Shown one piece after another: positions 1-61,534 of a stretch of 64,000 nt of DNA. Position 1 is the stretch's first letter. The number at the start of each line of letters is the position of its first letter. The notes under the pieces were generated by a model, which saw nothing but the letters and a program-made list of their open reading frames with translations, was not told the origin of the DNA and did not search any database. This stretch comes from Macrocystis pyrifera. Taxonomy: Eukaryota; Sar; Phaeophyceae; Laminariales; Laminariaceae. The stretch spans positions 12,243,581-12,307,580 of the forward strand of contig JASSKH010000022.1 of assembly GCA_031763025.1 (NCBI GenBank), in the 5' to 3' direction. The position numbers were made by a program, and so were the translations under genes.

Positions 1-462
1 GCCTACCTGGTATTGATTTTCCAACATTTAGTAAAAGTTCCCGGTTGTTTCCCGCGTCTCAATTGCCGGTACTTTACTACTACTCGTATCTGTACCTGGT
101 ACGGTAATCCGACTTATCTAGCCGTACGCTGCGTTTCCGGCTGGTTCGGAAATTGCGCTCTATAATCCGTGCCAGCACACACATATCACAAATGTCGTGG
201 AAACCCTTCCCTTTTTTCGCGTGACCCTGCATTACTTCCCGGGGGGATTTCTCACGATATTCGGTATAGTATACTTGATGCGTCAGTGGTATTGACGGGG
301 TGGTTGGGGGGAACGTCCGGGAATGTTTCCCTCGATATTAGTGTCGGTCGTGAAATCGTGGTACGCAGTTCGGAATACTTCATAAAAAAAAGGAAGATAG
401 CAGCGGCGTTTCTGGTCGGGTTGGGGTCAGGGCTAGGGTTATAGGGGTTGGGCTGAGTCTAC

Positions 463-1112
463 CACCTGTGCTGCACTGCCCACGAAACACAAGAAAAAGT
501 CCTGACAACCAAGACACTTGAATCACGTCTGCCGACGTTTTTTTTTTATGAGGACTTTTCGTTCTTCTGCTCTAGCTCCGACCGTTTCCATCGAACCAAA
601 ATGTGGCGGGGCAGATATGAGCTCCTTGGTGCAGACCTCGTCGCTGAAGTTTGAAAATGAGGTACCAGGCGCTTGAAATTTCGGTTTCTTGTACTGTACG
701 AGTAGTCAAGTTTTTTTTTTTCTGCCGTAGAACGAGAAGGAGAAACTTACTGAAACGTACTTCTGGGTTCTCCTCCTGGTCGTTCTACGAAAAAAAAACA
801 AACTTGACTGCAGCACAAGAAACCGAAAATTCAAGCGCCTGGTACCACATTTTCAAACTTCAGCGACGAGGTCCGCCCAGAAGGACGACACCAAAAGTGC
901 TGTCGTTTTGGCACACTCACTCACGGGAGTGCACCAAGGAGCTTGTATCTGCCCTGCCACATTGTGGCTCGATGGAAACGGTCGGAGCTAGAGCAGAAGA
1001 ACGAAAAGCCCTCATAAAAAAAACGGCGGCAGACGTGATTCAAGTGTCTTGGTTGTCAGGACTTTTGGCAATATCAGTTTTTTTTGTGGGCAGTGCAACA
1101 CAGGTGCTACGC
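463..1112. mobile_element. Foldback element, ~650-bp hairpin
   Basis: Left arm 463-745 is the inverse of right arm 767-1112 (for example CCTGACAACCAAGACACTTG at left, its complement near 1040-1060). The right arm has about 55 bp absent from the left. The loop is only about 20 bases. No credible protein is encoded; the frames seen here are arm sequence. Confidence 0.85.
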
Positions 1113-1185
1113 CCGTAACTTGATATCACTAGGAAGTGCTTCCTAGCCCGCAATAAGGAACAGCTCGACCCGTGGAAGATCCCAG
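1107..1185 (+). repeat. Short repeat module with AGGAAGTGCTTCCT hairpin, copy 1
   Basis: CTACGCCCGTA, AGGAAGTGCTTCCTAGCCCG, GAACAGCTCGACCCGTGGAA. The same order recurs at 1819-1895. Confidence 0.6.
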
Positions 1186-1818
1186 TAGAGTTTGCCACTT
1201 TTCGAGAGTTGGTCTGATTGGCTTACGGTCAGGGTGAGGGTGGGTCTGATTGGCTTAGGGTCACGGTTAGAGTGGGTCTGATTGGCTCGTAGGCGTAGGA
1301 TTAGGGTTAGTGCTATTCGTCTCGTAAATTGTGTGTCAAATCATTTTCTCGAGCAAGTGGTAAGATACCTTTCGAAAGTCCTACCGGACACGCTGTTTTG
1401 CACTACGAGACGATGCGAGACTGCTTTCTTCTTGCTACAGCAGTAGGTACACACGTGGCATGTGGCGAACGAACGACCACAGTAATAAAAACCCAGTCCT
1501 TCCATCCAGTTATTATTTGCAGTTGACGCTACGTCGACGCTTAACCCTGCACCCTGTTCAAAGTTCACTACCGGGTGCGTGTACTTGATTATTATTGCTG
1601 CAGTCCTTGTCAAGTTACAACTGGTTATTAATAGTACAGATCAGCCAGAGATATTTTTTTGCGACAAACGGCAGTAACTGTCTGTAGTTCTGAATGGTAG
1701 AATTTCCTCTTTTTTTTTTTTTTTCCTCGGATGAGAAAGTGGCGCAACCCCCGTTTCTCGCCCATGCTGGCCCGTTTCGGCGCTTGGCTTGGGGTTAGGG
1801 TTAAGAGGTTGGACTGGG

Positions 1819-1895
1819 CCTACGCCCGTACGTTCATCCCACCAGGAAGTGCTTCCTAGCCCGAGAACAACGAACAGCCCGACCCCTGGAAGACC
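1819..1895 (+). repeat. Short repeat module with AGGAAGTGCTTCCT hairpin, copy 2
   Basis: CTACGCCCGTACG, AGGAAGTGCTTCCTAGCCCG, GAACAGCCCGACCCCTGGAA. Confidence 0.6.
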
Positions 1896-4425: not shown

Positions 4426-4461
<36 letters not shown>

Positions 4462-7400
4462 CGTTTCTGGGGGAAGGAGCACCGCTCGATGACTCTGGTG
4501 TTTTTGGTCCGCGCGTTGACACATTTCGACACCTGTATTAGTACGAGGAGAGTTTTTGGTTGAGGACGAAGCGCTATTATTTATAGGGCGTTCTTGCCTT
4601 ATCGCACGAAGCGACGTTTCCACCCCCCCCCCCGCGCTTCCTCGTCGTCCTCCTACCCCTCCCCCCGCCGCCTCCCCTCGTCCTCCTGCCCCCCCCCCCC
4701 ATGTCCTCTCCCTCCCCCTCTCGCCCCCCCTTCCTCCGCCTCCTCCTCGTCTCCCGCCTCCACCGCCACCCGCCATGCTACCCCCCCGCCTCCCCCCCCT
4801 CCCCTCCCCTCCCTTCCTCCCTCCGCCTCCTCATCCTCCACCCCCTTTCCCCACCGCCTCCTTCTCCTCCTCCTCCTGCCTGCCTGCCTGTCTTCCAGGT
4901 ATCAGCGGCTATGCGGGCTCATGGAGAGGAACGGTCGGCGAGACGACCTCCTGTACGCTCTGCTCGGGGCATGCGGTCTGCCTGAGAGGCTTAGCGTTGT
5001 GCCTCCGGCCCGTGCAACGGACGTCCATCTCCGCTCCTTCCACGACAGGGACTACGTCGAGGTATGGATGGTTGGGTTGGCGGGGGGGGAGAGCGGTGGG
5101 CGGGCGGGCGCGGCGGGGGGGGGGGGGGGGGGGGGTGGGGGTATTATGTTATGCAGGCATGTTTCGGTCACGATGACGGACTGACCCCGGGGGGGGGGCG
5201 AGTGGTTAACGTTAACCCCTTAAGAACGGCAACCATTTGTTTCAGAAATACTACTTAAAGATAGCGTGGGACTCTTTTTTTAACTGGTGTAAGGGTTGAG
5301 GTGGGAGCGGGGGGAGGGGAGGGGGGGAGCTGGAAGGGAATTCCGGGGGGGGTGGTTAGGGTGGGGGGCCGTTTGTACCTACTTTTTTTGCTTTTTTGGG
5401 CGGCATCTGCGTTGATACGATATATTTGATACTTGGACATTCGATATCGCTCTGGCCGATGATTTATTACCCGTTTTGGCATTCGATATATTGATGTTAA
5501 TGGTGGGGCGATTTATATCGTGTTGAGCTCGAGGAGTACCTGGTATACGGTGTTTTCGTAACTTTAGGGCCAATATATTTTCATCATTTACCCCGCCCCC
5601 CGCGCCCCCCCCGTGTGTGCTGTTCCCGCTTCCCTGCTCTATGGTCGATTCCATGCATGCCGCCAGGCTCTTCGAAACCCCCCTTCGGACGTGAAAGCGC
5701 TGGACGAGTACGGCCTTTTGGATGACTGCGAGGTACGCCCATTTTGTTGCATACTACTTTTTTGTCGGTATTTCATATTTCGGGTTTCGGGTTTTCGGAA
5801 GGCCTCGTCGTTCAGGAGGGAAGGGGGGGAGCAGGGGCGAGCGTACTAATTTTGTCGCTTGCCTTAGTGATTTGACCATTGACCACACATCCCTTTCGAG
5901 ACGGAGCACCCGTTCCTACTCCTAATAGAGACCCCTCCAACAGATGGGTACTCATTGCGTATGTACAATATACGAAGTATGTACGCTATATATTGCTCTA
6001 GTCCTCGTGTCTGGCATCACGGTCTCGCGATCCAGAGCATTCCGGCCCCGCCTTGTCGCGTGGGTGATACAACCAGATCAGTCTTTCAGAAAGCCTAACG
6101 CCTATGTACGAGTGCTCCACGAATGGTGGAAATCGATATAAAGATCGAGGCACTTTGCGTTTGACGCATCAGCACCGACGCCCCCGTCCCCGTTCCACCC
6201 CCCTCCCTTCCGCCCCACCACGCCCCACCCCACCCCCACCGCACCACACCATACCATACCACACCCACCCAACCCTACCGCACCCCATGCCACCTCTCCC
6301 CTCCACCGCTTTTACGCTCGTTGGTAAGGTCTTCGAGGAGCTTTACGACTATTGCTGCGCAGTCGCCGGAGCGTCCCTCCACGCCGCCGACCGCCTGTGC
6401 AGGGGAACCGCGGATGTTTCCGTTAACTGGGGCGGCGGAAGGTATCTTTACCGTTGAATAGTACCGTTGGACAGCACCGTTGGATAGTACCGTTTGGGTA
6501 GTATAGTACGGTTGGGTAGTACAGTCAGACACGCTACCGTTGGACAGTACCGTTGGATGCTACCGTTGGATATGTGCACCTCTAGGCCAAAGACCGGCGG
6601 ACAATACAATCGTTGGGCAACAGAACCGTTGCGGCAGAAATGTTTTCCCGCGCTTCTTTCGCTTTTATCTCCACAGAATTTTGCGCCGCTTTTTCCGCGT
6701 AAGTGCTGTTTGCGTGCTGTGCCCTTTCTTGCGGTTTTTGTTTTTTTCCCCCTCTCGGAGCCTGCTCGTCTCGCCCTGTCCCTTACTGGAATCCCCGCCG
6801 CCCCCCCCCCCCCCAACCGCACTGGAGAGGGATAGCTCTCTACATTAACGTGGCATTGCTCTCTCCCCTGCCGCATTGTAGTGGCATGATATGAGTGTGA
6901 GTTTTCCACGCGCGCTATGATCGGCGTAATAGCACTTCTTGGCCAAGCATCCACACACGTCGGGCGAAGAGATGATGATCTATATATCTGTCTACAGTAG
7001 ATCGTTTAGGCCCTCACCTGTCACTCTGTGAGATGTTTGGGCAGGATCTGTGTAAGTGCAGATCCAACCGAGGAAAGATTTGATATATGTTGTAGATGGT
7101 GCCGATTTAAACGGGTTCCCACCGGGCAACATGAGGTAGGTTCGTATGAAGAAAGAAAAGAAAGAAAAAAAAAGGGGATGGACAAAAGAAAGAAAGAAAG
7201 AAAGAAGAGAAAGAAAGAAAAAAAAGGAAGAAAGAAAACAAAGACAAGAAAAGAAAAGAAAAGAAAAGAAAAGAAAAGAAAAGAAAAGAAAAGAAAAGAA
7301 AAAAAAAAGAAGAAGAAGAAGAAAGAAGAAGAAGAAGAAAAGAAGAATAAACGAAAGAAGAAAAAAAACGAAAGCCGTGAGATCGAAAAATTACTCCAAA

Positions 7401-10047
7401 CTGACCTTGACAAGCTTGGTGTGCTAATAGTGATAACCGGGTGTACAACATCGGCAACCTATCTGCACTTGAAAGAGCTATTACGGGGGTCCATAGTTAA
7501 CAGGACCTGTGGTACACATAATACTATATATTTTACCTATCTTTACTATCATATGTTTGGTCCTATTTACTATTAATATGGTCCCCTGTAGTAATAGATC
7601 ATCAAATAAAGTGGGGATCGATGATCGAGGTCCCTGTCAGGGTTGTGGACGAAAATATTTAGTGAATGTCGGGGCTCCTCAATGGAGGAAGTATTACGTA
7701 GACGCGCTGCTACGATATATGACGGGGACAATCGTAAGCGCTTTTTTTTTTTGGCTGGAGTATTTTTCTGAAATGACGGGAACACTCCTTGTTAACCCGT
7801 AGTATCGGAACAACGAAGTACATTTTTTGGTGCTACATATCAGCCGCCCACGAGCGGCATGCACCCAGCAGTGCAGGCAGACCAATGCTGCGGTCCGTGT
7901 CGTACGACTGCTTGCGTCGTAGCTCGGACACAAGCTCCTACGAGTATCAGCCCCTAAGGCTGTTCCCTGTGCGGTTCGATTTCGAGCTTCAGATTTTTAT
8001 TTTTCGATCTAACAAAATGAATGACCCTGCTTATGCAGTCCAAATATGCAAAATCCGACCGGAAATTTTTCGATATGAGAATCCGATGACCCAAGTCGTC
8101 GGATTTTCGGCCAAAATTCGACTACTTGGGTAATCAGATTTTCAAATCGAAAAATGGCACGCTCTCTAAATTCAGGATGTTATCCACGACAGCAAACAGC
8201 AGCAGAACGATCGATGAACTGGATGGCGACACAGCTGTATAGCGACGTTGCTTCGCGCCCGACGCGCGGTCGGCGGGCGGTGCGTCCCTCCGTGGCCAGA
8301 CTACAGTCGGTTGGCGCGGGCTCGGGCCGAGAGACCAAGACAATCACACTCGGCGTGCACTTCTCAATGGATACGTACTCCTAGACTACACTGCTGTACA
8401 GCAGCAGCAGCAGCAGCAGCAGTCAGACACATTTTGAAACACAAAATACCATGACAGCTTGACTCTAGCGCACGCGCCACGTCTCTTCGCCGCCGCCAGA
8501 CCATGGGCAGCGCACCCAGCGTGTCTCTTCGCAGCGCCAGACGACAACTAAAGCAGTTGATCTTGGCGTTTGCTCGAATCTCAGTACGAGTAATAAATCT
8601 GATTTTTCTGCATAGGACGACTGTTTTGGGTTTGCCAAGTTCACATCTAAAAATGCGATCGGTTCAAAATCCGAAGCTCAAAAATCGAACCGCATAGGAA
8701 ACGGCCTAACCGCGTCCCGCTTTTATTTTTATTTGTGTGCGTATATATTTTTTTCCAATATATCTGGTACCTGGTATAGTTAGTACATGTGACACGTATA
8801 TTTTTAGGGGTGAATAAATTTAAAACATGCAAGAAAAAATGTTAGTGGCAAAGATTTCTACAGTATTTTTTGTTTCATGTTATATGAAAACATCTATAAT
8901 ACGTATGTTTTTCTTCCCCTTGCCCCTTTTTCTTTGCCTTTGCCTTGCGGTGGCGATGCTTCTCCTCTCTTGCTGTTGTTTTATGTATTTTTTTCTCCGC
9001 CAGACACCACGCAAAAAAGGGCGAGGCCGCTGGGTTTTGCTTCGTGAATGACGGCGTTTTGGCGGTGCTGCACCTGGCGAAGACATTCGGCACCGTCCTG
9101 ACGATTGACATCGGTGAGTAGGCGGCGGGGGGGGGACGGGGGGAGGGGGCTGACGGCGTCAGCTGGAGACTTGCCTGGCAGGCGTTGCAGAGCGTTTCTA
9201 TTTGCTCCCCTACGGTGCGTTTCGCTATAAGTAGCCTTCAAAACATATTCGCGTTTCTGGTACCCGCACGTTTTTTTTTTCTTAAAGTGTCCAATTTATA
9301 TACCAAAAAAAAAAAACTGGTTGATTTAATATTTGTAGCAATATTTGGCGTTCATAGGCTCCCGATTTATAAGAGGCATTGCAACCAAAGCGCGTATGCA
9401 TTGCGGTGTCAATACCGTTTAATGGTCTCGCTGCTGCTGCTTCGTTTTCTGTGATGGTATTCGTAGCAATATTGGGTGTCCATATAGCGAGACTCATATG
9501 TAGCGTTGCAACAAACGCGCTTATCCATTGTCAATATCAGCAATGATCGCCGAGCTCAGCAGCAGCAGCAGCAGCAGCACTGGTTCCGACAGCACAGCCG
9601 TGTGCCGACACCTCGGACATGTCATTCGATGCCTGCTCCCGCACCTCGGCCAGACCGGATAGATCATTCCTGCTTGGACAGGTCAGATAGATCATTCAGG
9701 GCGCCAACATCTATGTAGCTCATGCTGCATGATCTATTTATGTAGCGCATGTTTCCGGAGTTGAATCTGTATTACGGTACATACCAGGTACGTAAACACA
9801 GATCCTGCACAGCATTCCGTGACGGTGGGTTATGCTATTGCTGTACGAGTACGTAGATGATCTAAATCGTGATCTGTCTACTTCGTGTATGGCGCATGTC
9901 GTAAGACGTTCCACCCTGACCGGTAATATAGTATATACATTTGGGATATTATTTGAACACTCAACGGGTATATAATATTTCCGGCCCTTGAGAGGCGGCG
10001 GCGACAAGCCACGCGGAACACAGACCACCCCCCCCGCTCAAACGCAA

Positions 10048-10082
<35 letters not shown>

Positions 10083-10196: not shown

Positions 10197-10271
<75 letters not shown>

Positions 10272-11827: not shown

Positions 11828-11894
<67 letters not shown>

Positions 11895-13823: not shown

Positions 13824-13885
<62 letters not shown>

Positions 13886-15407
13886 GGCTGCTGCGGCTGC
13901 TGCTGCTGCTGCTGCTGCTTGTGCTGCTTGTGCTGCTGCCTCGCTTGTCACAGCGACACGGCGCGGCTGTGGACCGCTCTAACAGCGGCGGCCGTGGGAC
14001 CCGACGCCGTAGCCTCTCTCGCCGCGGCGGTGCCCGACCACGCCTACTTCCCACTGTACGGCCCGGACTTCCGCATGGCGACAAAGAAAAAGACGCTTCG
14101 GGACAAAAACGACGACGACTTTCTTCGCAGGTAGGAGGCATAGGTGGACGGGGGGGGAGGGGTGTACTCGATAGGAGAGATGTACTCGATCTCATGCATG
14201 GCCGTAGTCGTATGACCATAGACCCTTGCATCCCTACAATGCCGGGACAGAGCATGTCAGGTTTTCACCGACCAGGCAGACATTGCTTGCACCAAGCGCG
14301 AAGCGCCGTGAGGTGTCCGGCGAGTCGCATGAAGGGCGAGCTGCATCCTACTAAGAACCGCTTGTGAGGCGGAATTTCTCGCATACGGATGACAGCATCA
14401 ATGAATTGGTTTAATTTCTGATGTGGCCACTTCCAGAGACAGCAATGGGGTTACTATGGAACTGCCTTGTGGGTGCCTCACCGTATACACACTACGTGAT
14501 ACGATCATCCCCCTTGTGCGGAGTGAATGAAGGTTCTCCCCGCACGAAAATGATCCAACTTTACCGCCAGCCGTGGTAACCGCCAAAAAAAAAAAAAAAA
14601 AAAAAAAAACGTACCCTGGCTGTCTAGCTCACGCAGTGAGGGGCGTATTTTACAGCGTCGTCGCCAACCGACGCCAACCCAACCTAAATATACCAGGTAT
14701 ATAATGTAGGGGTGGGGTGGGGGGGGGTAGGCGAGGGGGAAGGGGAGGGAGGGGAGGGAGGGAGGGGGTAGAAGGTTAGGAAGCATGCACGCTGGGGTGG
14801 GGGTTGGGAGAATGAAGGGGGGCGTTAGAGAGGTTGGCAGGCAGGCATATGGGGTAGGGGCGTGGGGAGGGGAATTGGGGAGAGCGAGGGGGAGGGGGAG
14901 GGGCTGAAGAGGTTTGGAAACATACGTTGGGGCGGGGGGGTCAGAGAGCGCAGGAAAGCATCGGGGCGGGTATCGAGAAAGAGAGCGGAAGAGAATGGGG
15001 GAACCAAAGAGTGGTTATGAAGGGAGAAGGGCGATCACTGGCGTGTACCAGGTACGAACCTGGATCGTTTTTTTTTTTTTGCCTTGGGGGGGGGGGCGTT
15101 GGGCGTTGGCTGCACGCTGCCGCTTGCAGCGGGGGGGGGGAGGGGGTAGGGGGGGGGTAGGGTGTCTCGAGAACTCTTCTCACCCGTATGGTTGTGCTTC
15201 CCTCCTCCCCGTATTGTCTTGACCGCCTCCCTATAGTACCCCCCACTCACTGCTGTGCTATCTCGTCGTTTCGCTGTCCTGTCCTGTCCTCTCCTGTGCA
15301 GGCTGTGCGAGTTTGCCGCGCAAGCGGGTCGAAAGGTCAGGCGCGCTCGGGAAGCTCGCTACAGGTCAGGGTATCGGGCGTTCACCGATTCAGGAGGATC
15401 ATGGTGA
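3787..15407 (+). CDS. HDAC: Class I histone deacetylase (HDAC8-like), ten exons
   Basis: Zn-dependent lysine deacetylase acting on histones in the nucleus. Exons read from sequence: ?-4364, 4899-5061, 5667-5732, 6329-6441, 9004-9113, 10123-10172, 12076-12193, 12794-13018, 13954-14130, 15302-15407 (stop TGA). Family landmarks in order: SLMHSPRYQRL at the domain start, [31 protein letters not shown] (catalytic His pair), IDIDVHHGDG (zinc Asp and His; the Asp codon is split by an intron), [16 protein letters not shown] (zinc Asp), GGGGY (catalytic Tyr), YGPDF. All GT-AG phases agree except between exons 8 and 9, where one base is missing. The N-terminus before 4320 is a long Glu/Gly/Ser-rich extension. 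ATG 3787 is the first in-frame Met after stops near 3570, but 3866, 4283 or an upstream exon are possible. Introns hold MITEs, oligo-G runs and repeats. Family assignment is sure; start and exon 8/9 junction are not. Confidence 0.9.
4424..4460 (+). repeat. G run in HDAC intron 1
   Basis: About 37 uninterrupted G, shortly after the donor at 4365. Followed further on by C/T-rich sequence up to the acceptor at 4898. Confidence 0.85.
5845..5925 (+). repeat. Short copy of the poly-C-tailed repeat family
   Basis: GTCGCTTGCCTTAGTGATTT, GACCATTGACCACACATCCC, TTTCGAGACGGAGC, preceded by a G-rich tract. HDAC intron 3. Confidence 0.7.
7145..7375 (+). repeat. GAAA/GAAAAG polypurine tract
   Basis: Repeated AAAGAAAG and AAAAG units, nearly pure purine for 230 bp, in HDAC intron 4. 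The Lys-rich frame through it is a by-product. Confidence 0.9.
7479..7595 (-). mobile_element. TIR MITE family A, copy 1
   Basis: Ends TATTACGGGGGTCCATAG and its inverse. The AT-rich interior is in the reverse orientation (TGGTCC at the right). It lies in HDAC intron 4 and is slightly longer than other copies. Confidence 0.85.
7949..8709. mobile_element. TIR element ~760 bp without coding capacity
   Basis: Left end near TGTGCGGTTCGATTTCGAGC (7970) and right end the inverse near GAACCGCATAGGAAACGGCC (8690); about 50 bp of imperfect inverted repeat. Lies inside HDAC intron 4. No recognisable transposase. Confidence 0.6.
9712..9890 (+). repeat. Dispersed repeat with AGATCCTGCACA core, copy 1
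   Basis: CATGTTTCCGGAGTTGAATC, ACACAGATCCTGCACAGC, GACGGTGGGTTATG. Related to 11150-11310 and 41420-41605. Copy 1 has about 20 extra bases holding a TACCAGGTA. Confidence 0.6.
10198..10480 (+). repeat. 73-base G run plus three short copies of the same family
   Basis: G run 10198-10270, then TACTCATTTGTTGCTTGCC ... ACGCATCCCTTTCGGGACGG (to 10362), then two short units with CATGCATGGCTGTAGTCATA and CCTGGCCGTAGTCGTATGA, each next to further G runs. In HDAC intron 6. Confidence 0.75.
11150..11310 (+). repeat. Dispersed repeat with AGATCCTGCACA core, copy 2
   Basis: GGTTTCCTGAGTTGGGATCT, ACACAGATCCTGCACAAAC, AACGGCGGGTTAGGATC. Confidence 0.6.
11610..11894 (-). repeat. Poly-C-tailed repeat family, long copy with 66-base C run
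   Basis: Matches the inverse of 12405-12612: GCAGCTCACCCTTCATGC, GTGCAAGCAACGTC, GACGTGCTCCGTCCCGGC, TGCATGACATGAGTA, then C run 11829-11894. In HDAC intron 6. Confidence 0.8.
12380..12612 (+). repeat. Poly-C-tailed repeat family, long copy (G run first)
   Basis: G run, TGTACTCGATAGGAGAGATG, GCATGGCCGTAGTCGTATGA, CCATAGACCCTCGCATCCC, GGGACGGAGCACG, CCAGGCAGACATTGC, ending CTACTAAGAACCGCTT. A partial copy (12310-12375) sits directly before it. Confidence 0.85.
13520..13940 (+). repeat. TGC trinucleotide repeat in HDAC intron 8
   Basis: Impure then pure CTG/TGC units, longest near 13822-13882. It forms the pyrimidine-containing run before the acceptor at 13953. Confidence 0.9.
14145..14372 (+). 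repeat. Poly-C-tailed repeat family, long copy
   Basis: Nearly the same as 12380-12612, also with an oligo-G stretch before TGTACTCGATAGGAGAG. In the last HDAC intron, 15 bp after exon 9. Confidence 0.88.
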
Positions 15408-19055: not shown

Positions 19056-20263
19056 GGAGACCAGTCTTTTTGGGCGCGTCAGGGCCTCTTTTAGCCTTAT
19101 TAAAATGGGTTTAGTACACTATGGGGGGCATTTTTTTCAAGGGGTCACACCGCGGTTTGCTGTAATGTCATTTTTTGGTTCGGGGCCGTTGACTATGGTG
19201 ATCGTGGCCTGAACGCGATGTGTTGCCTTCCTGCGATAGGAGATTGCTGGGGGCGGGCGGTCTCTCTCTCGCTTTCTCTCATGCTCTCTCTCGCGAGCTA
19301 GGTCGGTCTCCATTTTGTCTTTCTCTTACGAATATTGATGTTGGCACGGTGTGGTGTGGTGTGGCGTGGTGGGGCGATGCGGCCACGCACCCTCCCTGCC
19401 GCGTGTCAGGAGCAGCGTTATAGCGAGAGGGTAGGCGAAAGGCGGCCAACCGTCGGGAGAGGCAAGAAGGATTGCAATGCGTGCGCGCGTGTTGTGCTTC
19501 TTTCTGACTTGCCTGCGATAGGTTTGGAGGGAAGAGAGATGAGGCGGGGCGGGGGGATGCGGAGAGGGAGGGGGGCGGTGTTAGGGTATCACTCACGGCA
19601 ATTTGTTACTCGAGGCGAAGTATGATGGAGAAAGATACAGAGCACTTCAACATGAATTTATGCGCTCGTATAATATTAATACAAAAAGTACGTTACGCGA
19701 CACCTGGCGCCACTCAACACCCCTTTGGGGGCCGCGATATAGCGACCGAACACATGACACACCATCTACGTGAGCGCGAGGTAATGCAAGTGCGATGACT
19801 CCGTGCAAATTGTCGCATTATTATGCGGATCGCCCGCAATCAAAATAGCGCCAATTTCTATACACGGTCCAGGGTCACATCAAGAGAATACAAGGATGTG
19901 TCATTACGAGAAGTCAACGGTTGTATCTACCTATCTATCTTGTGTACGTACTGCAGATAATATCTACCGAGGCTGTCTACGTAGCTACGACATCATGTGT
20001 ATTTATTTGTTGCTACTTCGTCGTTGAGGGTGAGCGGCTGACGAACCACCGTGGTGGTAAGTGTTCGCGCAACCGATCTCATGAACGATGCCAGGTACCA
20101 GGTATCATACTGACTTGTTTTCGCTGACGGGGAGGGGTGGACGATTGACGATGTGGATATGCATGCGATACATCAACCGCGTTGAGAAGAAGTGAACGTC
20201 GTATTCGCACACAATGTCATGCTTCTTGTGCGTTTAACAATCAACAACGAATGTCTGTATTAC

Positions 20264-22158: not shown

Positions 22159-25100
22159 TCAGTGCAAGGACCAGTCAATATCGTCGGAGAGAATCCATTC
22201 TCCCGCCACGCCGTTAGCAGCTACCGCCACCCCACCATCACCACCACCACCACCACCTTCGTTGCTCCCCCCTTCCCCTCCCTCTTTGGATTTGGCTTCT
22301 TCCTCTTCCTCTTCGTCATCGTCGTCGTCTAAGTCCGCCATGAGATCGGCATTGGTGGGTGCCGCCGCCACCGCTGCCGCTGCCGCGTCCCCTGCAGCCT
22401 TGCCCGAGGCACCGCCTCTGCCGGTGTTGGAAGCGTCGCCGCCGGCAGGCGCCTATTAGAGCAAAAAAATGCGGCGGCGGGGGAGAAAACAAAATAAAGC
22501 GAACGAAAGTTATGTACGAACCCACGAACAACAACGAAGAAGCAAGAAAACAGAAACGTCCGTAAACAGAAACGTCGGTGGAGAGTTGAGAAAAACAAAA
22601 CCGTCACCCTAAGAGAACGGTTGCTCGTAGGTACAGGAGCAGAACAGACCGGGCTCATCCTCCTCCTACCGCTAAGAGTCTACTGTTACGGGGGGCCATA
22701 GTAAATAGGACCTGCGGTACAGACAAAAACCTATATATTTCCCTATTTTTACTGACAATATTTGGTCCTGTTAACTATGGTCCCCCGTAATAGGACAGCT
22801 ATTAACTGCTACCTGGGACTACTGCTGCACCACCGCTGCTACTCATACTACTGCTCTTACTACTATTACTACTACTACCTCTACTACTACTACTACTGCC
22901 ACTACTACTACTACTACCTCTACTACTACCACTACTACTGCCACTACTACTACTACTACTACTACTACCACTACTACTACTACTACTACTACCACTACTA
23001 CTGCTACCACTACGACGACTGCTGCTAGTCCTACTGCTACTATTTCGGGGGGCCATAGTAAATAGGACCAAATATTGCTAGCAAAAACAGGTAAATATAT
23101 AGGTTTTAGTGTGTATCGTAGGTCCTATTTACTATGGTCCCCCGTAATACCACTACTATTAACAGTGTGATTGAACACACCCCCACCTCTCCGGCCGAGG
23201 TAGGAACTCGCCGCATCATGACCGCCTGGTCACCATCGAAGTAGCCCTGTAGCAGCACGGGATGGCGGGGCGGGGGGGGGGGGGGGGGGGGGGCGTCATC
23301 GGGCCGCAAACGCAAGATCGTCGGTGGTAATTGGTCCATGGTTGATGGTAAAATGGTCGATAGAGAACGGTCATTTGGTTTTGATGCAACAAAATCGTGT
23401 TTTAAACGGTCATTGGACTATCGTTAATGGTGAATGGTTGACTGTCAGCGGTGGGTGGCGAACGGTCGATGGGGCAAAGCAAATGGCCAAAAATCATGGT
23501 CAACAGTTGGAGGTGATTGGTGGATGTTATTCAACATGGTTGATGGACGGTGGTCGAAGGTAAATGGTGAATGGGGGCAGAATCAATGCTTAATGGTCAT
23601 TGGTCGATAGATAATGGCAAAAAAAAAAGTTGATATTGACTGGTGGATGGTCGACGGGGCAAAGTCATTGTTCGATGGTCATCGGTCGAAATTTGGAGGG
23701 GGGGGAGGGGTCTGTGGGATGGGAGAGGGAGTGTACTCATGTCATGCATGGCCGTAGTCGTTAGCCATAGACCCTCGCATCCCTGCAATGCTGGGACGGA
23801 GTCGGTCGGGTTTTCACGTTTTCACCGACCAGGCAGACATTGCTTGCACCAAAGTGGGGGAGGTTACTCGCCTGCTGTGCCCACCCTCGCATCTGGGAAA
23901 CCCCGTAGGGCCCGTGTACGTTTCCGTCCTTCCCCCTGTACTCGAAGTACGCGCTGTCCTCTCCCGCCCCCGCCCCCCCCCCGCTTCCAAAGCTGGAGAC
24001 TGCTGCATCTGCATCTGCATCCACCTCTGCTGTTGTATTTGCTGCATCTGCTGCTGGCCCCCATCGCCCCCCCAAAGTATGCTCCTGCAGGACAAGCGCG
24101 TCGTACAGGCGGAGACAAAAAATGGGACTATCAATACAAAAGTCTGCAAAAAAAGGTTAAAAATATCACTTTCAACGCAAAAAAAAGGGAATACTCACGG
24201 AGGGGTCTACGAGTATTGAGAGCCTTGTATTCAATAATACACCACCAGATAATACCACTGTGACCGCAAAAATAGTACCAGGTACCCGTTTTGACTTTGA
24301 TGCGGACATCAAAACGGGTATATATTATTCCTAGGCAGAGCGGTACCGGTTGTTCAGCACTGCCACGTACTTATGTACTAACGCAAATGGATTAGTGGAC
24401 GTGAAGTTGTAGAGATGAGACAATAGGCACAGCGACTGATCGCGAGGGAACCGCCTGAGAGCGAAAGTGAGCCAGAGAGGCATAGGCGAAAAACACAAAA
24501 ACGCCGGGAAAGCTCGAAACCTGGGGGGACATCCAGACACCGTAACTAACCAAGCCGTGACACTACCTCGGTGGATGAGAAGCATGTATCGAAACACGCC
24601 GAGCAAAAAACACACACACACACACAAATCAGTGCTGAAAAATCCCGCAAATGCAGAAAGCTATCGATCGCTGTCAAAGCAAATTTGTGCCAGCTGCCGC
24701 CACGCCCCCTTCCCCCCGCGGGCTACCCCCGCCACCCTCTCCCCACCCCTCTCCCCCACCACTAGCTCCGTCTCCTTCTCCCTCCCTCCGCCCAACTATC
24801 ACCAAAGAACCTGCTCCCTCCCCCCCTCTCCCGGAACCCCCCCCCCTCTCCCAGAATAGCCCCCCCCCCCCCCATCGCTAACCCCGTCTCCCCCACCCCA
24901 CCCCCGCCCGCTAATTTCTCACCAGAGGACGACGCCCGAGCCGCCGCCGCCTCCGCCGCCTCCTCGAAATCCTCTCGCGTTTGCTGGTACACGTCATGCT
25001 GCCCCGCTTGAAGCAGGCCGTCCGCGAGGTCCGTCAAGCGCTCGAAGTTCCCGCGCCGCTTCTTCTCCTCGGCCTCTATCTTCCCCGCCTTCACCTCTGC

Positions 25101-30700: not shown

Positions 30701-31361
30701 AAACTCCGGGGAATACCGCGTGTGCTACAATGGCAGACGGTTTCAAGGAGGTATTTTTTTTTTTTGCAACATGTTCGGCGCTTTCTTCTGCCTGATTTTG
30801 GGGATCCGTGCAAACAAGGGTTTCGAGGGCCACAAGGGTGTGTGATCCAGATGGGGGTTGGGGGTCAACCGAGTAAGGAACTCGAACTCGAAGCGGACCG
30901 ACATTTTACACCACTTCTTGCGAGAGCTTGCCGAGCTGGGAGAGGTTTGAAATCTCGCATGTATGATCCAACTCCAAGCAAGCTGATTTATTGACTGAAC
31001 CCCTTGGTGAGGATGCCTTCCGTCTCCAGAGCAACTTACCGGGCGGTCCAGCCAACTTACTGCCCATATGCGTACGAGTACGCAGTGTTTGTCCATTGTG
31101 CTATTTTTGCTGTCTCGCGAGGAAGACGAAAAGGGTTGCCTCTGAGGTGTACTGGTACAGCAAAAAGTGGTATTTATCACACCGGTACGCCAAAGCGGAG
31201 AACGCGGCGTTCCCTCAGAATCCACGCGAGGACAAATACCAGGTACCTGACACGAAAAGTACATGTACATATCATATGCACGAGCCATGTACTTCGTACT
31301 GGTATGGGTGGTATGCTGTTGCGTTATGTGTGTTCGATATAGCTTGTCTCGCCGATCAGCC

Positions 31362-31470
31362 TATTACGGGGGGGCATAGTAAATAGGACCAAATATTGTT
31401 AGTAAAAATAAAGAAATATATGGGTGTTTGTGTGCACCGTAGGTCCTATTAACTATGATCCCCCGTAATA
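31362..31470 (+). mobile_element. TIR MITE family A, copy 7
   Basis: TATTACGGGGGGGCATAG ... ACTATGATCCCCCGTAATA, about 270 bp before the copia element. Confidence 0.9.
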
Positions 31471-34311: not shown

Positions 34312-34422
34312 TATTGCAGGGGTCCATAGTTAACGGGACCAAATTTTGTTACTAAAAAAAGGCAATATATATAGTTTTTTTATGTACACCATAGGTCCTG
34401 TTAACTATGGACCCCCGTAATA
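34312..34422 (+). mobile_element. TIR MITE family A, copy 8, inside copia integrase
   Basis: TATTGCAGGGGTCCATAG ... ACTATGGACCCCCGTAATA. Copia coding sequence flanks both sides, so it inserted after the copia element. Confidence 0.92.
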
Positions 34423-36938: not shown

Positions 36939-39900
36939 ATGTGCAGCAGCACCATCTTGTGGATCCCGAGCACTTTCGAGCTCAGCGCTGGCTCTAGATA
37001 GCGCGAAAGAAGACCTGGAAGCACGCACAGAAGTACAAATACCGTGAGTCTCCACAACGAAGGCCACAAGCACAGCTGGCGTGCGTGTGCGTGTGCCGCA
37101 GCAACCATCTGCATTGGCCAACACAGCCGAGGCCGACACCTCTCGGGAGGAAAGCAACGCTAGAGCTCACACTCCGAGTCCCGCCTCCCCAGCTCGCCTT
37201 CCCAGCTGTGGCCCGCGAACAAGCAACAGCGACATCATGACAAATGGGTGTGAAAAAGAGGAGGACTCAAACTTTTTTTTTCTTTGTCTTACCTTCACTC
37301 TCTCCCTTCTTCTCGAACCGAACTTTGCGTCTCCCGCCCGCAGCGCCATTATTTCCCCCTCTCTCTCCCCCAGGAGTTTTCCTTTTGCTTGACATGTTCC
37401 TCCCCGGCCTTGTCTTTACTGCTGAAAAATGATCGCTTGAGACAACCTCTCTGCACGGATCGATCCCCGTATGTCCGGATATATAATCCTTCTAGAATAA
37501 TGTCGAAACCCTCAGATGTTCCGAGAACAGCATAAGCAGAGAGATAGTATCCGAAGCATCGCCGCAGGACGGCTCAGACTTTTATTTTTCTCGTCCAAGG
37601 CTCCACACGTTAGTCGAGGCACCGGCGGGCTCGCGAGGCTGACTTCGTGTGAAGAAAATTGGAAATTCTATCTCAAGAGCAGGACGATCCAACCACTGCA
37701 TTGTTGCTGTTGCTGCACTGCAGGCACCTCACTGCCCAGCACAGCAGCAAGAGCGTGTGTCCACGTCGGCTTTAGGCTTTGACCACTTCGGGAGGCAGCC
37801 TAGTACGCTTGGAAGCAATGTCAATGTGAGCAAGTAGAAATATGCCGTGCGCACCTCCAGCTGCCACCGGCATACCCCCCCCCCGCCTCCGCTCCGCAGC
37901 AACGAACAAACGTCAACGTTGCTTCCCCGAACGACGGATCTCTGCGTGTTACGCTGCAACAGGCCCCTGTTTTATTATAATAGATGCTTGATGAGAGCAG
38001 GTTGTGTTTCTCTGTCCTTCGGTCTCTTGTTGATGGGAGCAAAATACCACAAGATCTGACTTGCTTCGTCTTGAGTGCTTCAGGCTTATACTACAGCAGT
38101 CAGTAGAGCGTGTAGCGACGACACACCGGGCACCCCTGCGTGTGATGCTGCCCCCCAACCCTCGGTTTGTGGGTGGTGGGCATACCCATGCGCAAGGCAA
38201 CGCTGCCTGGATTGGGGGGTGCATATCATAGCTGTGTCTACAGCAGTATGTACTTTTTGTGGTGAAGATACGTACCTGGTACCAGGTATATGAGTGTTGG
38301 CTGTTCATGCTTTAGTCATGTAAAATATTTTATGCCAGCTTGACATTGGTCGACGTCACTTGGCGGTTGTCCACTCCCGAATTCGTATCGTAACTATAAA
38401 AGTCATTGGTCTACATATCTGGAATCATATATTTTGGTACGACTGCGTACCAATACGAGTACAACAGCAGTAGTACGTATACATTGCTGCCACAAGTAAT
38501 TAAGTGTAACCCTGGTATATATGCTGCACGTTCTCGGATGGGAAGCACCCGAGAATATCAGGGCTCTCATGGGCCAACCCGTGGGTCGGGTCAGGCACTT
38601 CTCGAACTCTCATGGGTCGGGTTGGGTCGGTCGGGTCGGGTGGGGTCAGGAGGTTTTCGAATCCTCACGGATCAGGTACGGTCACCGTTACCCGATCCGA
38701 CACTGATCCGCGAGGTTTGACGCGAACAACCATGAACAGCCCTCGGTAATATCGTATTGACTGTAGCATGTTACACATCGAGGAAACAGCAAAGCACCAC
38801 AACCTACGGCGTGCTCTCGCCCGACAGAAGCAGTAACATTTCGAAGCAAGCTTATTAACCGCGCCTTTGTTTCCTCTTGGTTCAATCGTGGGGAGCGTTC
38901 GAGTCGAGATGCAATCGACACTGACAGCAGCCCGCTCTCATCAGCCCACCCCCACCAACGTATACAACAATCGCTTCCCTGTCTTCGTCGACCTGTTGAG
39001 CCCCCTCCGATGCGTTACAGACGTACGAACGTATATTACTCCTCCCCAAACGATCGGAAATGGTATTCCTATCAGACTTTGAATTTGGAAACCCCCGATA
39101 TTCCGAACCGGTTCGACATTCCAGTAAACGCCTGCTTGGAAACCCTTTCGGTCTCGAGCCACTTCGGCAACCCAAGCACGTCTGGTTAGAAGCCCTTTCG
39201 GTTTCGAACCAGTTCGGTACTCCAAATCCCCCCCCCCCTCCGCCAACCCCATCTCTCCCCCCCGACGGGCCGTAGATATATGCGCGCACACAGCCATGAT
39301 GCGCCCTATCACATACACGAAATATTGGCAGGGCCAATTTGACTCACCGGGTGGCTGCCGCCGTGGCTGTCGCTCTCTTTTTAAGTCGTATGTCCAATTC
39401 GCTCGCTTAGCTTTGAGCATAATTGGACTCTAAACTAGATAGCACAATGTACGAAGCATGTCTGGGCTTTTTAGGCTTTAAAGTAGCATACGTGTGCTAT
39501 TTCAGGAGCATAGCAACATGAAACATAGCAGACAACACGCACGCAGTTTTTATAAAATGAACACAGCATGAGCATAAGCCTATGAATAGTCGCTGTCGGT
39601 ATCGAACTCGAATTTCAGGGGGAAACGTTATCGAATCCGATATCGGTGATCGTGTTATCGATATCGGGGTCACTCTCGAGGCGATCGATATCCGAACCAC
39701 TATAGATATATAAATCGATATTGCTATCGATATGATTTCGCTTTCGATATCAATATCGGAACCATGTTACGGTAGGGGTGGTCTATCACTCGTATATATC
39801 ATATACCACTCTATCCCGAAATATGAGGATCGTTTGTATATAGTATTGATATGCAAACGAACCTTGCAGTATGTCGGGACAGGGGGGTACGGTTATACAA

Positions 39901-40852
39901 GGCTCCCCTTCGGGCTGTGGGTATCTTGTTGGAATCCCGGGGGTCAGGAAAGTTGAAAAGGGGGAATAGAGGCGTTGCTGTGTATATGAGCCTGGTTGAG
40001 AGTTCGCTGCTGTGCCGCTGCTGTGCCGCTGCTGTAGTACTGCGCGGGTGTTTTTTTTTTTTTAACGTTTCGGAGGAAGTGTGGGTTGGCATCGTCCAGC
40101 TCGTTGTGTTTAGGATGACACGCCCAGGTGAGCACACACGCACACGCACAAGGGCACCGCTCTTGGCTGTCACTCAAATAAGACCTTGAAGTAAGGCTAT
40201 TGCTGCTGTACCGTGGATTCCACGACGTCAACAGGGAAAGCATACGTCAGTGTAATACAGGTGCACAGCATGAAGAGCAGATAGCACAGCACACCAAAAA
40301 AAAAAAAAGAGCTGAAGTTGCACCTCTCGGTTCCTGCTGCTGTTGGACCCTAGGATAACATGTACATACGCACACTCACGCACGCACACCCACGCACGCA
40401 CGCAAACCCATGCACGCACGCAACAGCACCGCTCGTCGCTGTCACAAAGGCCGGAGCGTGAAGCGCGGCTCTTGTAGCGTGGCTGCCTAGCTCTTGAGGG
40501 CAGAACAGCAGGGGGGTAAAGAATGAAGAAAAAAATGGCAGTTTGGAGTTTGTTGCCATGGACCTGTTTGGGCCTAGCTGGGGGGAACGGCTCCTTGCGA
40601 TTACTTGCCAAATTTCGTGATTTTGATAGCCTAGAGCACGCGCCACGGAGCCCGGCCGAGATCCACACGTGCGCCGTGATGTGCGCGCGGCCCCCCTGCT
40701 CGCCCCGCGGCCGAGAGCGCGGGAAAAGACCTGCGGCCGGAAGAGAAACCGTGGCCGATGGGCATTAAAGTCAATTTGGTACAAAGTAATATGATACGTA
40801 AGCCTCGACGAACAAATTGATTTTGGCTGGGCACATCGCGAATCGGCACCAC

Positions 40853-40926
40853 TCTGGACGGAAATATAAGGAGCGTTTCAAAAATAGCATAACGACCAAA
40901 TGGTCCTTACATTTCCGTCCAGATCT
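40853..40926. repeat. Short hairpin, ~70 bp
   Basis: CTGGACGGAAATATAAGGA opposite TCCTTACATTTCCGTCCAGA, loop about 30 bases. Confidence 0.65.
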
Positions 40927-47307: not shown

Positions 47308-47975
47308 CCTCTATTCCGTAACTCATCTTCCCTTTTGCGGAGCATGGGTGCCTGCACATGCGAAGCTTTGCATAATACCAGGTATTACTGCAGATTGATC
47401 GAAAGCGACAACGTTTCCTCCTTATCGTCGTGCGTAGACAGTGGCTATCCACATTCCGGGAGGGGGGGGGGGGGGGGTTTATTCGGGCCACTAAACACTT
47501 GGTTCTACTGCGTATGGGTTGAGACCGGGGCTAGACCGAGCAGAGCAGAAGGTACTGTAGTTCGACTATTCACTTGCATTCACTACTTGTGTCTATTCCG
47601 TAACTCCTCTCCCCTTGCGGAGCATGGGTGCCGGCAAATACGAAGCTTTGTGTAATACCACGGTAAATTGATCGAAAGCAACAACTTTTCCTCCTTGTCG
47701 TCGTTTTATGACGGCACGGAGAATCCCCGCTAAACGCTGGCATAGACAGTGGTTGTCCACACTCCGGGAGGGGGGAGGAGGGGGGGGATTATTCGGGCCA
47801 CTTAACCCTTTTAGAACCGTAGTCTCGTTTTAGGAACAAACTGCTTGGAATTAGAGTGGTTTGTCCCCGAAACGGGACTGCGGTTCTAAAGTTAACACTA
47901 GATTCTACTGCGTATGGGTTGAGACTGGGGGTAGACCGAGAGCGGAAGGTAGTTCCACTATTCACTTGCATTCAC
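47308..47975 (+). repeat. Tandem duplication, two ~280-bp copies
   Basis: Copy 1 at about 47308-47585 and copy 2 at 47592-47975 share TATTCCGTAACTC, GCGGAGCATGGGTGCC, GAAGCTTTG, TTGATCGAAAGC, GACAGTGG, TTATTCGGGCCACT and TTCTACTGCGTATGGGTTGA. Copy 2 is longer because of a ~35-bp insertion and the 86-bp hairpin. Confidence 0.85.
47806..47891. mobile_element. 86-bp hairpin MITE flanked by TTAA
   Basis: TTAA at 47802-47805 and 47892-47895 flank an inverted repeat TTTAGAACCGTAGTC ... GACTGCGGTTCTAAAG. The upstream duplicate near 47495 lacks it and keeps a single CTAAAC at that spot. TTAA duplication is the mark of piggyBac-type transposition. Confidence 0.7.
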
Positions 47976-56670: not shown

Positions 56671-56748
56671 TTTGCCGCATGCGATTTCGTCTTGGTTTTT
56701 TGGTTTTGTCAAGCTCGTTCGTGTCGAGTGAACTCGCTTTGGGGGTGC

Positions 56749-58017: not shown

Positions 58018-58126
58018 TATTACGGGGGTCCATAGTTAACGGGACCAAATTTTGTTAGTAAAAATAGGTAAATATATAGATTTTTATGTACACCATAGGC
58101 CCTATTAACTATGGACCCCCGTAATA
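58018..58126 (+). mobile_element. TIR MITE family A, copy 9
   Basis: TATTACGGGGGTCCATAG ... ACTATGGACCCCCGTAATA. Best-preserved ends (~29-bp inverted repeats) and bounded by TA, as for Tc1/mariner-type elements. Confidence 0.92.
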
Positions 58127-58789
58127 GGATAACCGATAGGAGAAGAGTAGACCAGCGTCCGAGGAAAGTTCCTCGGGCAAGTGTATTTACCCGTCTAGCG
58201 GATTAATGGAAGGGAGCAGAGTGGGCTTGATACCTCGAATCCAGCCCCAATCGAATCACTCTAAAACTGCTTCCTTTTCTCTCATCATAAAAGGGGAATA
58301 ACTCGACGACGAAGAAAGAAGTCTCCTATACACGGGAAGCTGCCTTCCGAGCCAGTTTCTGCATTCCACTCCCCTTACCTTTATCCTCGGGCTCTAGTAC
58401 ACCTTGTGTGAGTGACGAGAGCAGAGCCAGAGGCACACCTGCTAACAGTAGTCGGTCTCTAGGTCCATCTGCCTTACATTTGGCACATGCTTTGTCGGCA
58501 GGACATAGGTCGTTGGTCGTGAGTTCGAATCTCACGTCCGCCATAACAACGCTTGTTTCCTCGTGCCAAGAATCTGATAAAACTCTCTTCTTCCTGGGCT
58601 CCCAGAAATTGTTAAGAACATCGGACTATAGGCACGTACGGTCCCATAGGAAGACCGAGGACCCCGCTGTTCTGAAGGGGGGGGGGAGTGTCACAAGGCT
58701 TAGATTAGGTATAGCCGATAATAACCTTTTACCAGTAGCCCAATGGACTACAGTAAGACCTTAATACATGGCATCGTCGGCAGGACTAA

Positions 58790-59822
58790 ATGCTTTTGGC
58801 ACCTGTTCGAGGTCTGACTTTTTTTCTGGCTACAAATCTGGTTATTCGCTATTGTAGCCTGCTTTTTCGGCTTCTTGCTGTTTACTTGATGCCTTCTCTT
58901 TTTGGTGATGGCGTTCGAGAACATGATATCCGCCGTTTCCCCACCGGGTCGCGCGACGAGACTGGTGCAACAGCCGCTATAGGCACATGCAATGTTGGCC
59001 CGTGCAACGTAGGGGATTTTTCGTATTCGCCCAGTCCGCCTGGTTATTCGCTTCTTGGTAACACGAGCATCTGTGTCGCTGCTGCTGCTTTTGGTAGTGC
59101 CACAAGCCCCTCTGTCACTGCTTGCACCAGATAGGCCCTCGTTCCTTTCACCCACGCTTGCCGCTGGTTCGACTCTGCAGCCCGTTACAAGCCCGGACAC
59201 AGCGACAAGCGCGCTGCACCCAGAACGACACTCCGGGCAGTCGGTTCCGTTGTGGGCGCAGCAGGATAGTCGGCCGAGCCTTTCTCGGGTGTATGATGCC
59301 CGTCTCGGTAAAAATCCGTCTTTTTTTTTCGTGACCGACTCGGCCCCCCTCGTCTATTCCGTGCTTGGCATGCAGCGCCCTCTATTTCTACTGTAGTATC
59401 AACAGGGATACTTCGCTTTTGATGTTAGTGAGGCGGAACCCGAGGGCGTTCGACCCTCGTATTCATCCCTCCCGCTGCTCATGGCACCCGAGCCCGGCAC
59501 CGTTATTCCGGTTACAACCGTGCTTGGCACTCGTACCCGCTCGCATGCTAGACGCGCTTCTGCGACTCAGCAGTCACACAACCGGCACCCCTCGGACGCC
59601 TGCCTCTGTCGCCTGGATCGTCTCACAACGACCACCCCGTTCGTTCTGACACTGATACACGACAAACTAGCCGTTTCTTCTTCGTCCGCGCCAGATGTAC
59701 GACGCGCACGACGCGCAGCTCGTGTGTCGGCACAAGCTACGCTCACTCGCAGAGAGATTTTTGTTGTGCCTGAGGAGCAACGTGACTTCACTATGCCCTC
59801 GTATGATGTTTTTTTTCGTTGA
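58790..59822 (+). other. Unassigned open stretch, several frames with one internal stop
   Basis: The frame from 59055 to 59822 is open except for a TAG at 59394 (SLSRVYDARLGKNPSFFFV before it, GYFAFDVSEAEPEGVRPSY after it). Composition is Ser/Thr/Pro/Ala rich without a motif I recognise. The end EEQRDFTMPSYDVFF lies in a segment that recurs near 61845, so it may be repeat-derived coding sequence of an unknown element. Confidence 0.25.
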
Positions 59823-59959
59823 ACCTAGCATTGTAGTTTTTGTACACTATTAATAGACGTCTAGCAAGACACCGATGTGCCGCCGTACAGCAATAGTGAT
59901 TGTTTCCATACACAGCAGTCGACAGCGAAAATTCTAGCAGAGAGATTTTCAAGGCTTAT

Positions 59960-60300
59960 CACGGTAATTTCGGCGGGACGGTAACGGCGGTAACGGCGGG
60001 ACGGGACGGTAAAACCGCCGTCAAAATGGTCCCGCCGTCCCGTCCCGTCCCGTCCCGCCGACAAAATCCCTGACCGTCGTCACTTAACGGTCCCGTCCCG
60101 CCTATAAAATCTCTCCCGTTGGAAATTACCGTCCCGTCCCGCCGTGACACCGAAAAATTACCGTCCCGTCCCGCCGTGGCACCGAAAAATTACCGTCTCG
60201 TCCCGCCGTGACAGCGAAAAATTACCGTCCCGTCCCGCCGTGACACCGAAAAATTACCGTCCCGTCCCGCCGATAAAATCTCTCCCGTAGGAAATTATCG
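59960..60300 (+). repeat. CCGTCCCGTCCCGCCG array 1
   Basis: An inverted stretch (GGCGGGACGGTAAC) followed by about six ~38-bp units ACCGTCCCGTCCCGCCGTGA plus CACCGAAAAATT. Confidence 0.85.
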
Positions 60301-61534
60301 TTCCGTCCCGTCGTGGCACCGCCTCCGGCGGACATAACTTGCCTCTTCCCCTACAAGAAACATTCGTGGTCGTCTGTTCCCATCCATTTCCACCACGAAT
60401 TACGAAATTAATCAAGCAATTTCGAGTTGTACCAACTTCACTATTAATTACTATATAAATACATGTGTTATCATAAATCGTGCGCAACTCCCATCTATAA
60501 ATGAAATACGTATATAATAGTAGTAGGCGTATTACCCAGCTTGCAAAATTGGGTATCAACTATTCAATTACTAATCAGTCGAACTCACAGATCACGTATT
60601 TTCATCGTCTTGCTTATATAATACCTGGTCAGTGATACGAAATTGCGGTGGGCACCACATTTACTTCTGCTAGGAAAAGCTGTGCTGGTGGTGTTGATCA
60701 GCAGCTGGTTGATGATTTGTTTTATATGCTTTCAAATGAAGGTAAGTACAAATATTGCCATTTACGAAAAAGAATGAAATTACTATTAATACCAAGTAGT
60801 AACTAGTGGTGGTGTTGTTTTTTCTTTTCATTTTTTTTAAAGAATCTTCATGCTTCATATTTCCACTCTCGCAACTGAAACCAGAGTAGTATCATAACGC
60901 ACCACCTGCCACAGGCTCGCCACCACACACAAACAGCACAGAGACCACTCAACTCACGATCACACCAGTACTGGTGTGGCCCAAAAAGATTTCAGGAGAC
61001 ATGCCATCAAGCGGGACGCAAAACGTGCGCTGTCAAGGATGTAGGGCCGAGTATTACACACATTAGAACCTACCTGGTAGCGGTTTGGTGTCAGTCAAAG
61101 CATGTCAATGTCAATGCAAAGTTGCTGTCTGTCAAGGGCAAAAGTGCTGTCTCCTAACATCTTTGGTGTGACCGACACGGACGCCACGGATGGATGCCTA
61201 TCTCACGGGCGGGGTCGATCGACCAGCAGCGGCACTAGAATCACCACCGCCGCCACCACCTCCACCTCCACAATCACCAGTAACACAGCGCAAGCACAAC
61301 CATCAGAACAGCCACCATGATGAGCTGGCAACGCAACAACAACAGTGCTCGGGGCAGGGGTGGAAGAAATCAGAAAACGTCGCCCGAGTAGTGGCAGCAC
61401 TTCTCGGGGCTTTGGCTGCGCGGGTCGAGAAGAAAACGTCCGCGTCGGGACGGCTCTCTTCGCGGAACCAGCAGTGTGCGGGAAAATTTTCACGTACAAC
61501 CGTGGCGAACTCGCGGCAGGAAAGAAGAAAAACA

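Follow-up and report, generated by a model that had tools for sequence, protein, structure and literature searches.

TACC(A/T)GGTA in the giant kelp genome, a probable excision footprint of a short palindromic element of Tc1/mariner type

Studies of transposon excision footprints usually deal with small sets, of a few to a few dozen. Here, we describe a nine-base word, TACC(A/T)GGTA (hereafter TACCWGGTA), in a stretch of 64,000 nucleotides of the giant kelp Macrocystis pyrifera (assembly GCA_031763025.1, contig JASSKH010000022.1, positions 12,243,581 to 12,307,580, called the window below) and in the whole genome, and we propose that it is probably the excision footprint, or scar, of a non-autonomous palindromic miniature inverted-repeat transposable element (MITE) of Tc1/mariner type, named MITE A. 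The closest described systems are the following. The Stowaway MITEs of grasses are likewise short and palindromic, use TA as target and leave a few end bases per side between two TAs (PMC1925063, PMC4561436). Five distinct putative Stowaway footprints are described at one gene site, together with new insertions into or beside an old footprint (PMC1925063), which can be compared with the kelp doublets and with locus L046 presented below; however, several footprints occur at a site there, whereas one dominant joint occurs at about 10^5 places in kelp. In Sleeping Beauty and mariner elements, the first nick falls three bases inside the element and produces 3-nt 3' overhangs, which form the footprint after end joining (PMC7827188). 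The TA target is common to these elements and to the kelp family, and a cleavage three bases inside the ends would also be suggested in kelp by the joint. The Sleeping Beauty footprint is CAG (PMC8151067) and Tc1/mariner footprints measure 2-4 bp (PMC7913693), whereas the kelp scar has five bases; similarly, the ends of rice Mariner elements are CTCCCTC (PMC4423477), whereas those of MITE A are CCR.

Excision sites have also been searched at genome scale in rice, as here; 94 putative excisions postdate the divergence of two rice species, and 8 of them are perfect while the rest carry deletions or filler (PMC4423477). The kelp scars are, in contrast, uniform and more than 1000 times more numerous, although the two sets may cover different time spans and are not like for like. 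In Ectocarpus, a brown alga as well, Mariner-Tc1 elements are also mainly non-autonomous and comprise 17 families and 11,912 copies (PMC12477816). Neither that paper on transposable elements nor the giant-kelp genome paper (PMC10498591) contains the word "footprint". Our literature searches returned no report of the kelp scars, and the text matches listed for the 9-mer include no transposon paper by title. TA-specific MITEs and their footprints are thus known, and the new part is the presence of more than 10^5 nearly uniform footprints in one genome, of which no report was found in the literature searched.

The word occurs 15 times in the window, exactly at the coordinates given by a preliminary description made from the letters of this DNA. 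The form TACCTGGTA is found at 4..12, 93..101, 5537..5545, 8768..8776, 38273..38281 and 61071..61079, and the form TACCAGGTA at 9782..9790, 14691..14699, 15046..15054, 20096..20104 (with CCAGG just before it), 24276..24284, 31237..31245, 36376..36384, 38280..38288 and 47376..47384, no strand being assigned to any of them. The sites at 38273 and 38280 are the left and right units of a doublet with a TA common to both. Dinucleotide shuffles predict 0.30 occurrences (largest of 100 shuffles, 4) and an order-3 model 0.26, while 200 simulations with an order-5 model fitted to the window gave a mean of 1.26 and a maximum of 4. The enrichment noticed in the preliminary description is therefore real, although its size, estimated there at about 30 times chance, was too low and reaches about 50 times by shuffles. 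Considering all the symmetric words TA-xy-(W or S)-y'x'-TA of the window, TACCWGGTA is present 15 times and the runner-up twice, and only the W-centred form is rich. Comparison of the flanks also bore out that the sites are not part of one longer repeat.

Over the whole genome (537,376,219 bases in 223 contigs), TACCWGGTA was found at 121,279 places versus 2,421 when the pattern was reversed as a control, i.e. about 50 times more, and is thus not near background. Several of the counts below come from a 254-kb sample, composed of the window and of the fetched loci L001 to L020 minus L017, a near-copy of L016. These two loci of contig C3 lie 120 kb apart and are near-identical, which indicates a large duplication or assembly redundancy in C3. 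As L013-L020 were chosen at or near listed word matches, the sample counts are somewhat raised: it contains 68 words versus 1.9 expected. L001-L012 alone, which are evenly spaced on contig C203, contain 27 words in 120 kb, that is one per 4.4 kb, equal to the genome-wide density. An assembly or sequencing artefact is hardly credible given that, in these assembly-level data, the word is present on small contigs and on chromosome-scale scaffolds, in several contexts and with a target-site preference.

The insertion at TA can be followed at 36376..36384, where TACCAGGTA lies in a retrotransposon of copia type, according to the name given in the preliminary description. This region was aligned over 31 copies (12 loci fetched from 41 matches and 19 short stretches; none of the remaining 9 of the 41 matches covers the site). 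TACCAGGTA is present in one of the 31, the window's own copy, and TACCAGTA in another one, its nearest relative (91%); the other 29 have no insert, and the TA is kept in 26 of these 29 (counted by eye). The earlier reading of this word as a 7-bp insertion was thus confirmed against paralogues, and TA-only alleles do exist, at paralogous sites. Smaller comparisons concern other scars. The scar at 47376..47384 faces a 7-base gap in a 71% paralogue (window 47592-47810), and the one at 61071..61079 has paralogues without insert in L015 and L003, where the aligner split the gap. Two paralogous stretches without the word at 14691..14699 are poorly aligned there and decide nothing. Position 812 of L011 serves as comparison without insert for the scars at 9261 and 9327 of the same locus, and in L019 the repeats at 1687 and 2682 carry the insert at a different TA, each being the empty site of the other. 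The other pairs of the paralogue table have the word in common or align poorly around the site. In all these comparisons, including the 36376 site, the empty and the scar states were seen and the element state was not found. Concerning L011, the two scars, 66 bases apart, have near-identical flanks but differ in form (TACCAGGTA and TACCTGGTA), which corresponds either to two events or to a duplication followed by substitution of the middle base. The CCWGG core is palindromic, as could be a motif maintained in place by selection (a protein binding site or a CCWGG modification site), but such a function is very improbable: the word is a 7-bp insertion with respect to paralogues, it is present inside a retrotransposon and a MITE too, and the empty alleles disfavour it.

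The preliminary description had called for an intact element between TAs, with CCW...WGG ends, and an element of this kind, with CCA...TGG ends, was indeed found in high copy number. Searching for inverted repeats bounded by TA and with CC at their ends, we obtained an 83-base palindrome (L005:517-599), which defines MITE A: a palindrome of about 83 bp, TA-CC(A/G)CTCTGgcCGgAAATATAAGG...-TA, with arms of about 25 bases and no coding capacity. Its short terminal inverted repeats and lack of coding capacity are those of a Stowaway-like MITE, and these inverted-repeat ends lie at TAs, as expected for a TA target site duplication (the TA-only paralogues being those of the scar). For the copies of MITE A themselves, no empty site was found. 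At least 54 matches are listed in the genome (648 first-look candidates, 40 of them scored), and the left TA of the element lies within 4 bases of the start of the match in 20 of the 54 listed. Among 16 fetched copies, TACC and GGTA are kept at both ends in 5 and at one end at least in 15. The first profile recovered 13 copies in the 254-kb sample at E<0.02 (best reversed decoy, 0.1), and profile rounds including the sample's own copies recovered 15 (decoy, 0.39), which would extrapolate to some 30,000 copies in the genome, or roughly one for every four scars. One 25-mer end pattern is found at 3,934 places genome-wide with at most 3 mismatches (control, 0) and, among the matches listed, 20 of the 23 exact 25-mer ends start with CCA and 3 with CCG.

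Four copies of MITE A lie in the window. Two are on the minus strand, at 40848..40924 (E 2.3e-14 with the first profile and 1.4e-18 with a later profile that includes it) and at 39804..39889 (E 6.6e-5, then 1e-12 with the later profile that includes it; TACC and GGTA ends). On the plus strand, the copy at 9910..9989 is degenerate (E 0.074, then 1.3e-8 with the later profile that includes it), and the copy at 24253..24344 contains the scar TACCAGGTA of 24276..24284. This last copy is not significant by the profile alone (E 5.2 first, 0.7 later), and both its ends are recognisable by eye. Joining the flanks of the nested scar shortens the copy from 92 to 85 bases and gives it a profile score of 13.2 bits instead of 7.8, the best of 73 joins (72 controls, the best at 11.0). 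Tandem arrays of MITE A, with a spacing of about 93 to 137 bases, were observed in L038 (1502-2125), L034 (1164-1583), L047 (1511-1815) and L042-L045. Another repeat, with ...ACACGCAAGATAACACACC... as its inverted ends, is present in L005 (3075-3324, the end at 3075 being TACCGTATAACACG), at window 41859 and at L001 9201; a similar sequence adjoins MITE A in L035, L036, L038 and L039 (by eye), and the CCG ends of repeats of this type would predict a rare TACCSGGTA scar.

We propose the following route from MITE A to the word. The element would insert at TA and duplicate it; a transposase acting in trans would then nick three bases inside each end, leaving CCA on one flank and TGG on the other. 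End joining would retain three bases of one side and two of the other or, alternatively, the two terminal A bases would overlap and their mismatch be repaired to A or T. The product would be TA-CC(A/T)GG-TA, and the site would end up 7 bp longer than before the insertion. The CC(A/T)GG found between the two TAs corresponds to the CCA ends, and a cut 3 nt inside these ends followed by a 3+2 nt joining gives exactly TACC(A/T)GGTA. This word is the predicted main product, and TACCAGTA and TACCGGTA are the predicted minor ones. We infer that MITE A itself, and not a closely related element ending in the same bases, was the source of the scars, as we do the position of cleavage, the joining step and the transposase.

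The joints that can be enumerated from CCA ends were counted in the 254-kb sample. The 3+2 joint (TACCAGGTA or its complement TACCTGGTA) is present at 68 sites (36 times the expected 1.9), followed by the 3+1 joint, as which TACCAGTA is read, with 36 sites versus 9.5 (3.8 times), the 2+2 joint with 9 versus 3.2 (2.8 times), the 1+1 joint (TACGTA) with 119 versus 54 (2.2 times) and the 2+1 joint with 37 versus 27 (1.4 times). The 3+0 joint (30 versus 29) is near background, as are the 2+0 and 1+0 joints, and the 3+3 joint is absent (0 versus 0.3). The rarer CCG ends predict TACCGGGTA, which was found at 5 sites versus 1.3 expected (3.75 times). In the same sample, TACAGTA/TACTGTA, a joint of Sleeping Beauty type, reaches 2.2 times its expectation.

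A second family of TA MITEs, MITE B, offers a comparison. Its copies measure about 109 bases, have TTA ends and begin TA-TTACGGGGG(T/A)CCATAG...; in the window they lie at 23041-23149, 31362-31470, 34312-34422 and 58018-58126, and also at 22687-22789 and 26849-26951. The scar predicted for MITE B, TATTAATA (overhangs paired over two bases), is 5.4 times commoner than expected, versus 0.9 to 2.3 times for the other TTA joints, and was seen as an insertion in one copy of the copia locus (L026). The target flanks of both pairs were scored against random TA flanks after removal of repeated and scar-like flanks. Those of MITE A (n = 39) prefer a purine at -6 (0.84, background 0.48), more precisely an A (0.53, background 0.26), and a T at -7 (0.44, background 0.27); the scar flanks (n = 104) have the same preferences in a weaker form (0.68, 0.39 and 0.36, respectively). 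The flanks of MITE B (n = 27) and of TATTAATA (n = 70) prefer T-A-C at -3 to -1. Indeed, the MITE A flank profile fits the scar flanks (z +5.5) and not those of TATTAATA (z -1.8; uncleaned, +5.5 and -2.5), whereas the MITE B profile fits the TATTAATA flanks (z +5.9) and not the scar flanks (z -2.6; uncleaned, +7.2 and -4.6). MITE A and the scar therefore share a target-site signature, similar but not equal, which is different from that of the MITE B/TATTAATA pair. The flanks of TACWGTA are neutral towards the MITE A profile (z -0.1).

These data also bear on the idea that a five-base unit was inserted directly at TA, by abortive or single-end insertion or by templated repair, without a full element ever being present. 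The 36376 site, with only empty and five-base states besides one TACCAGTA, and the scars, about four times commoner than the MITE copies by extrapolation, are in accordance with it. We nevertheless regard it as quite unlikely, since the correspondence with the MITE ends, the gradation of the joints and the common target signature point to an element, and since the second pair of MITE and scar obeys the same logic.

If the word results from excision of MITE A, the same sites seem to have been used repeatedly. Doublets, in which two units have a TA in common, amount to 5,620 genome-wide, of which 2,018 combine unlike units (1,409 TACCAGGTACCTGGTA and 609 TACCTGGTACCAGGTA); subtraction leaves 3,602 with like units. 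Pure tandem duplication does not by itself account for the 2,018 unlike doublets, and the doublets suggest repeated use of one site. The imbalance between 1,409 and 609 would fit a preference for A at target position -3, supplied by TACCAGG on the right side. A MITE A copy in L046, degenerate at its left end, has the TA of its right end in common with TACCTGGTA, which is the arrangement expected for a doublet precursor. The first 50 doublets listed (contigs C1-C65) include 22 TACCAGGTACCTGGTA and 1 TACCTGGTACCAGGTA, versus 25% and 11% genome-wide, a skew perhaps due to duplicated repeats in small contigs.

The attribution of the scars to excision, already proposed in the preliminary description, is supported, on the grounds of structure and statistics, by the genome count, the TA-only paralogues, the absence of a longer repeat and the element with CCA...TGG ends. 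Several observations nevertheless weigh against it. Like-like doublets represent 64% of the total, versus 50% from independent repair of each unit, so that a pure model of random repair fails: either duplication produced part of the doublets, or repair of the middle base is non-random. A strict all-against-all scan for indels among fetched loci gave 463 events, 30 of them of 7 bases, with a single TA-flanked TACCAGGTA; the empty-site evidence thus comes from few families. Among paralogues, we found no pair that combined a MITE-bearing copy with a scar-bearing one and, among the matches listed, the joined MITE flanks retrieved from the fetched loci only neighbours in tandem arrays, with no scar at a MITE site. 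The signatures are also imperfect: the MITE B profile fits the TACWGTA flanks too (z +6.2) and is thus not word-specific, the flanks of TACCAGTA, which would be the 3+1 joint, fit the MITE A profile non-significantly (z +1.2) and, in the uncleaned set, a purine at -1 is commoner in scars (122/148) than in MITE A (36/54, p 0.02), whereas A at -6 is less common in scars (60/148) than in MITE A (31/54, p 0.04). In addition, the genome gave 0 matches to PF13358, which was detected in 3 control genomes, and 0 to PF01359, the latter having little weight as no control genome responded either. Lastly, the scars look young: the 254-kb sample contains, besides the 68 exact words, 82 one-change neighbours versus 45.3 expected (the S-centred pair being counted once), that is roughly 6% change per base in a simple model, while the MITE copies are visibly degenerate.

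As the scars look younger than the MITE copies, a younger related element sharing these ends may be their source. More generally, the scars could come from another TA-specific element, younger or rarer, with CCA ends or with CCAG or CCAGG ends and a longer overhang, MITE A being its older relative. The stronger -1 preference of the scars also speaks for such an element, and an overhang of 4 or 5 nt, CCAG(G), would give the same joint. On the other side, the scar flanks are predicted by those of MITE A, the weak TACCGGGTA class fits its CCG ends and, in the 254-kb sample, no 12-mer starting with TACCWGG and not continuing with TA occurs three times in at least two loci, which led us to reject a parent with this start. 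We consider this origin unlikely and retain MITE A as the probable source.

Other candidate parents were considered. At 20 of the 23 exact ends, which were fetched, no long autonomous element was recognised, all of them running into a second MITE arm (by eye). The far end is mostly degenerate, with partner scores of 12-21 for a maximum of 24, and in L049 and L068 the best partner arm lies 205 and 183 bases off, beyond a second repeat. The sole convergent pair of exact ends (L062/L063, separated by 18 kb on contig C210) consists of one sequence present in duplicate and was rejected as a long element. The palindrome at window 663-844, with TACCAGG at both ends, was rejected as well since its inverted repeat extends to 460-1109 and the motif is internal; this imperfect inverted repeat of about 650 bases has TACCAGG in both arms and is not a clean MITE. 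Outside these repeats, the start of an open reading frame at window 12733-13479 appears to resemble an exon of a class I histone deacetylase (translation read by eye).

On balance, we favour the view that scars, and not copies, constitute the most numerous DNA-transposon legacy in giant kelp, with more than 10^5 independent excisions, a nearly deterministic 3+2-nt joining and sites often reused. The excess of scars may be linked to the prolonged haploid phase, during which no homologue is available as a template for repairing a broken chromosome. A seven-base scar is probably too short for ordinary repeat masking, yet with one word per 4.4 kb the scars are numerous enough for statistics on target choice, joint choice, site reuse and age. 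The 7-bp gain is a frameshift wherever it falls in coding sequence, and the scar offers a ready marker across kelp individuals and species. If this view is true, the genome would keep a legible record of transposition and of the repair of breaks, in which each family of elements has its own word (TACCWGGTA, TATTAATA, TACWGTA).

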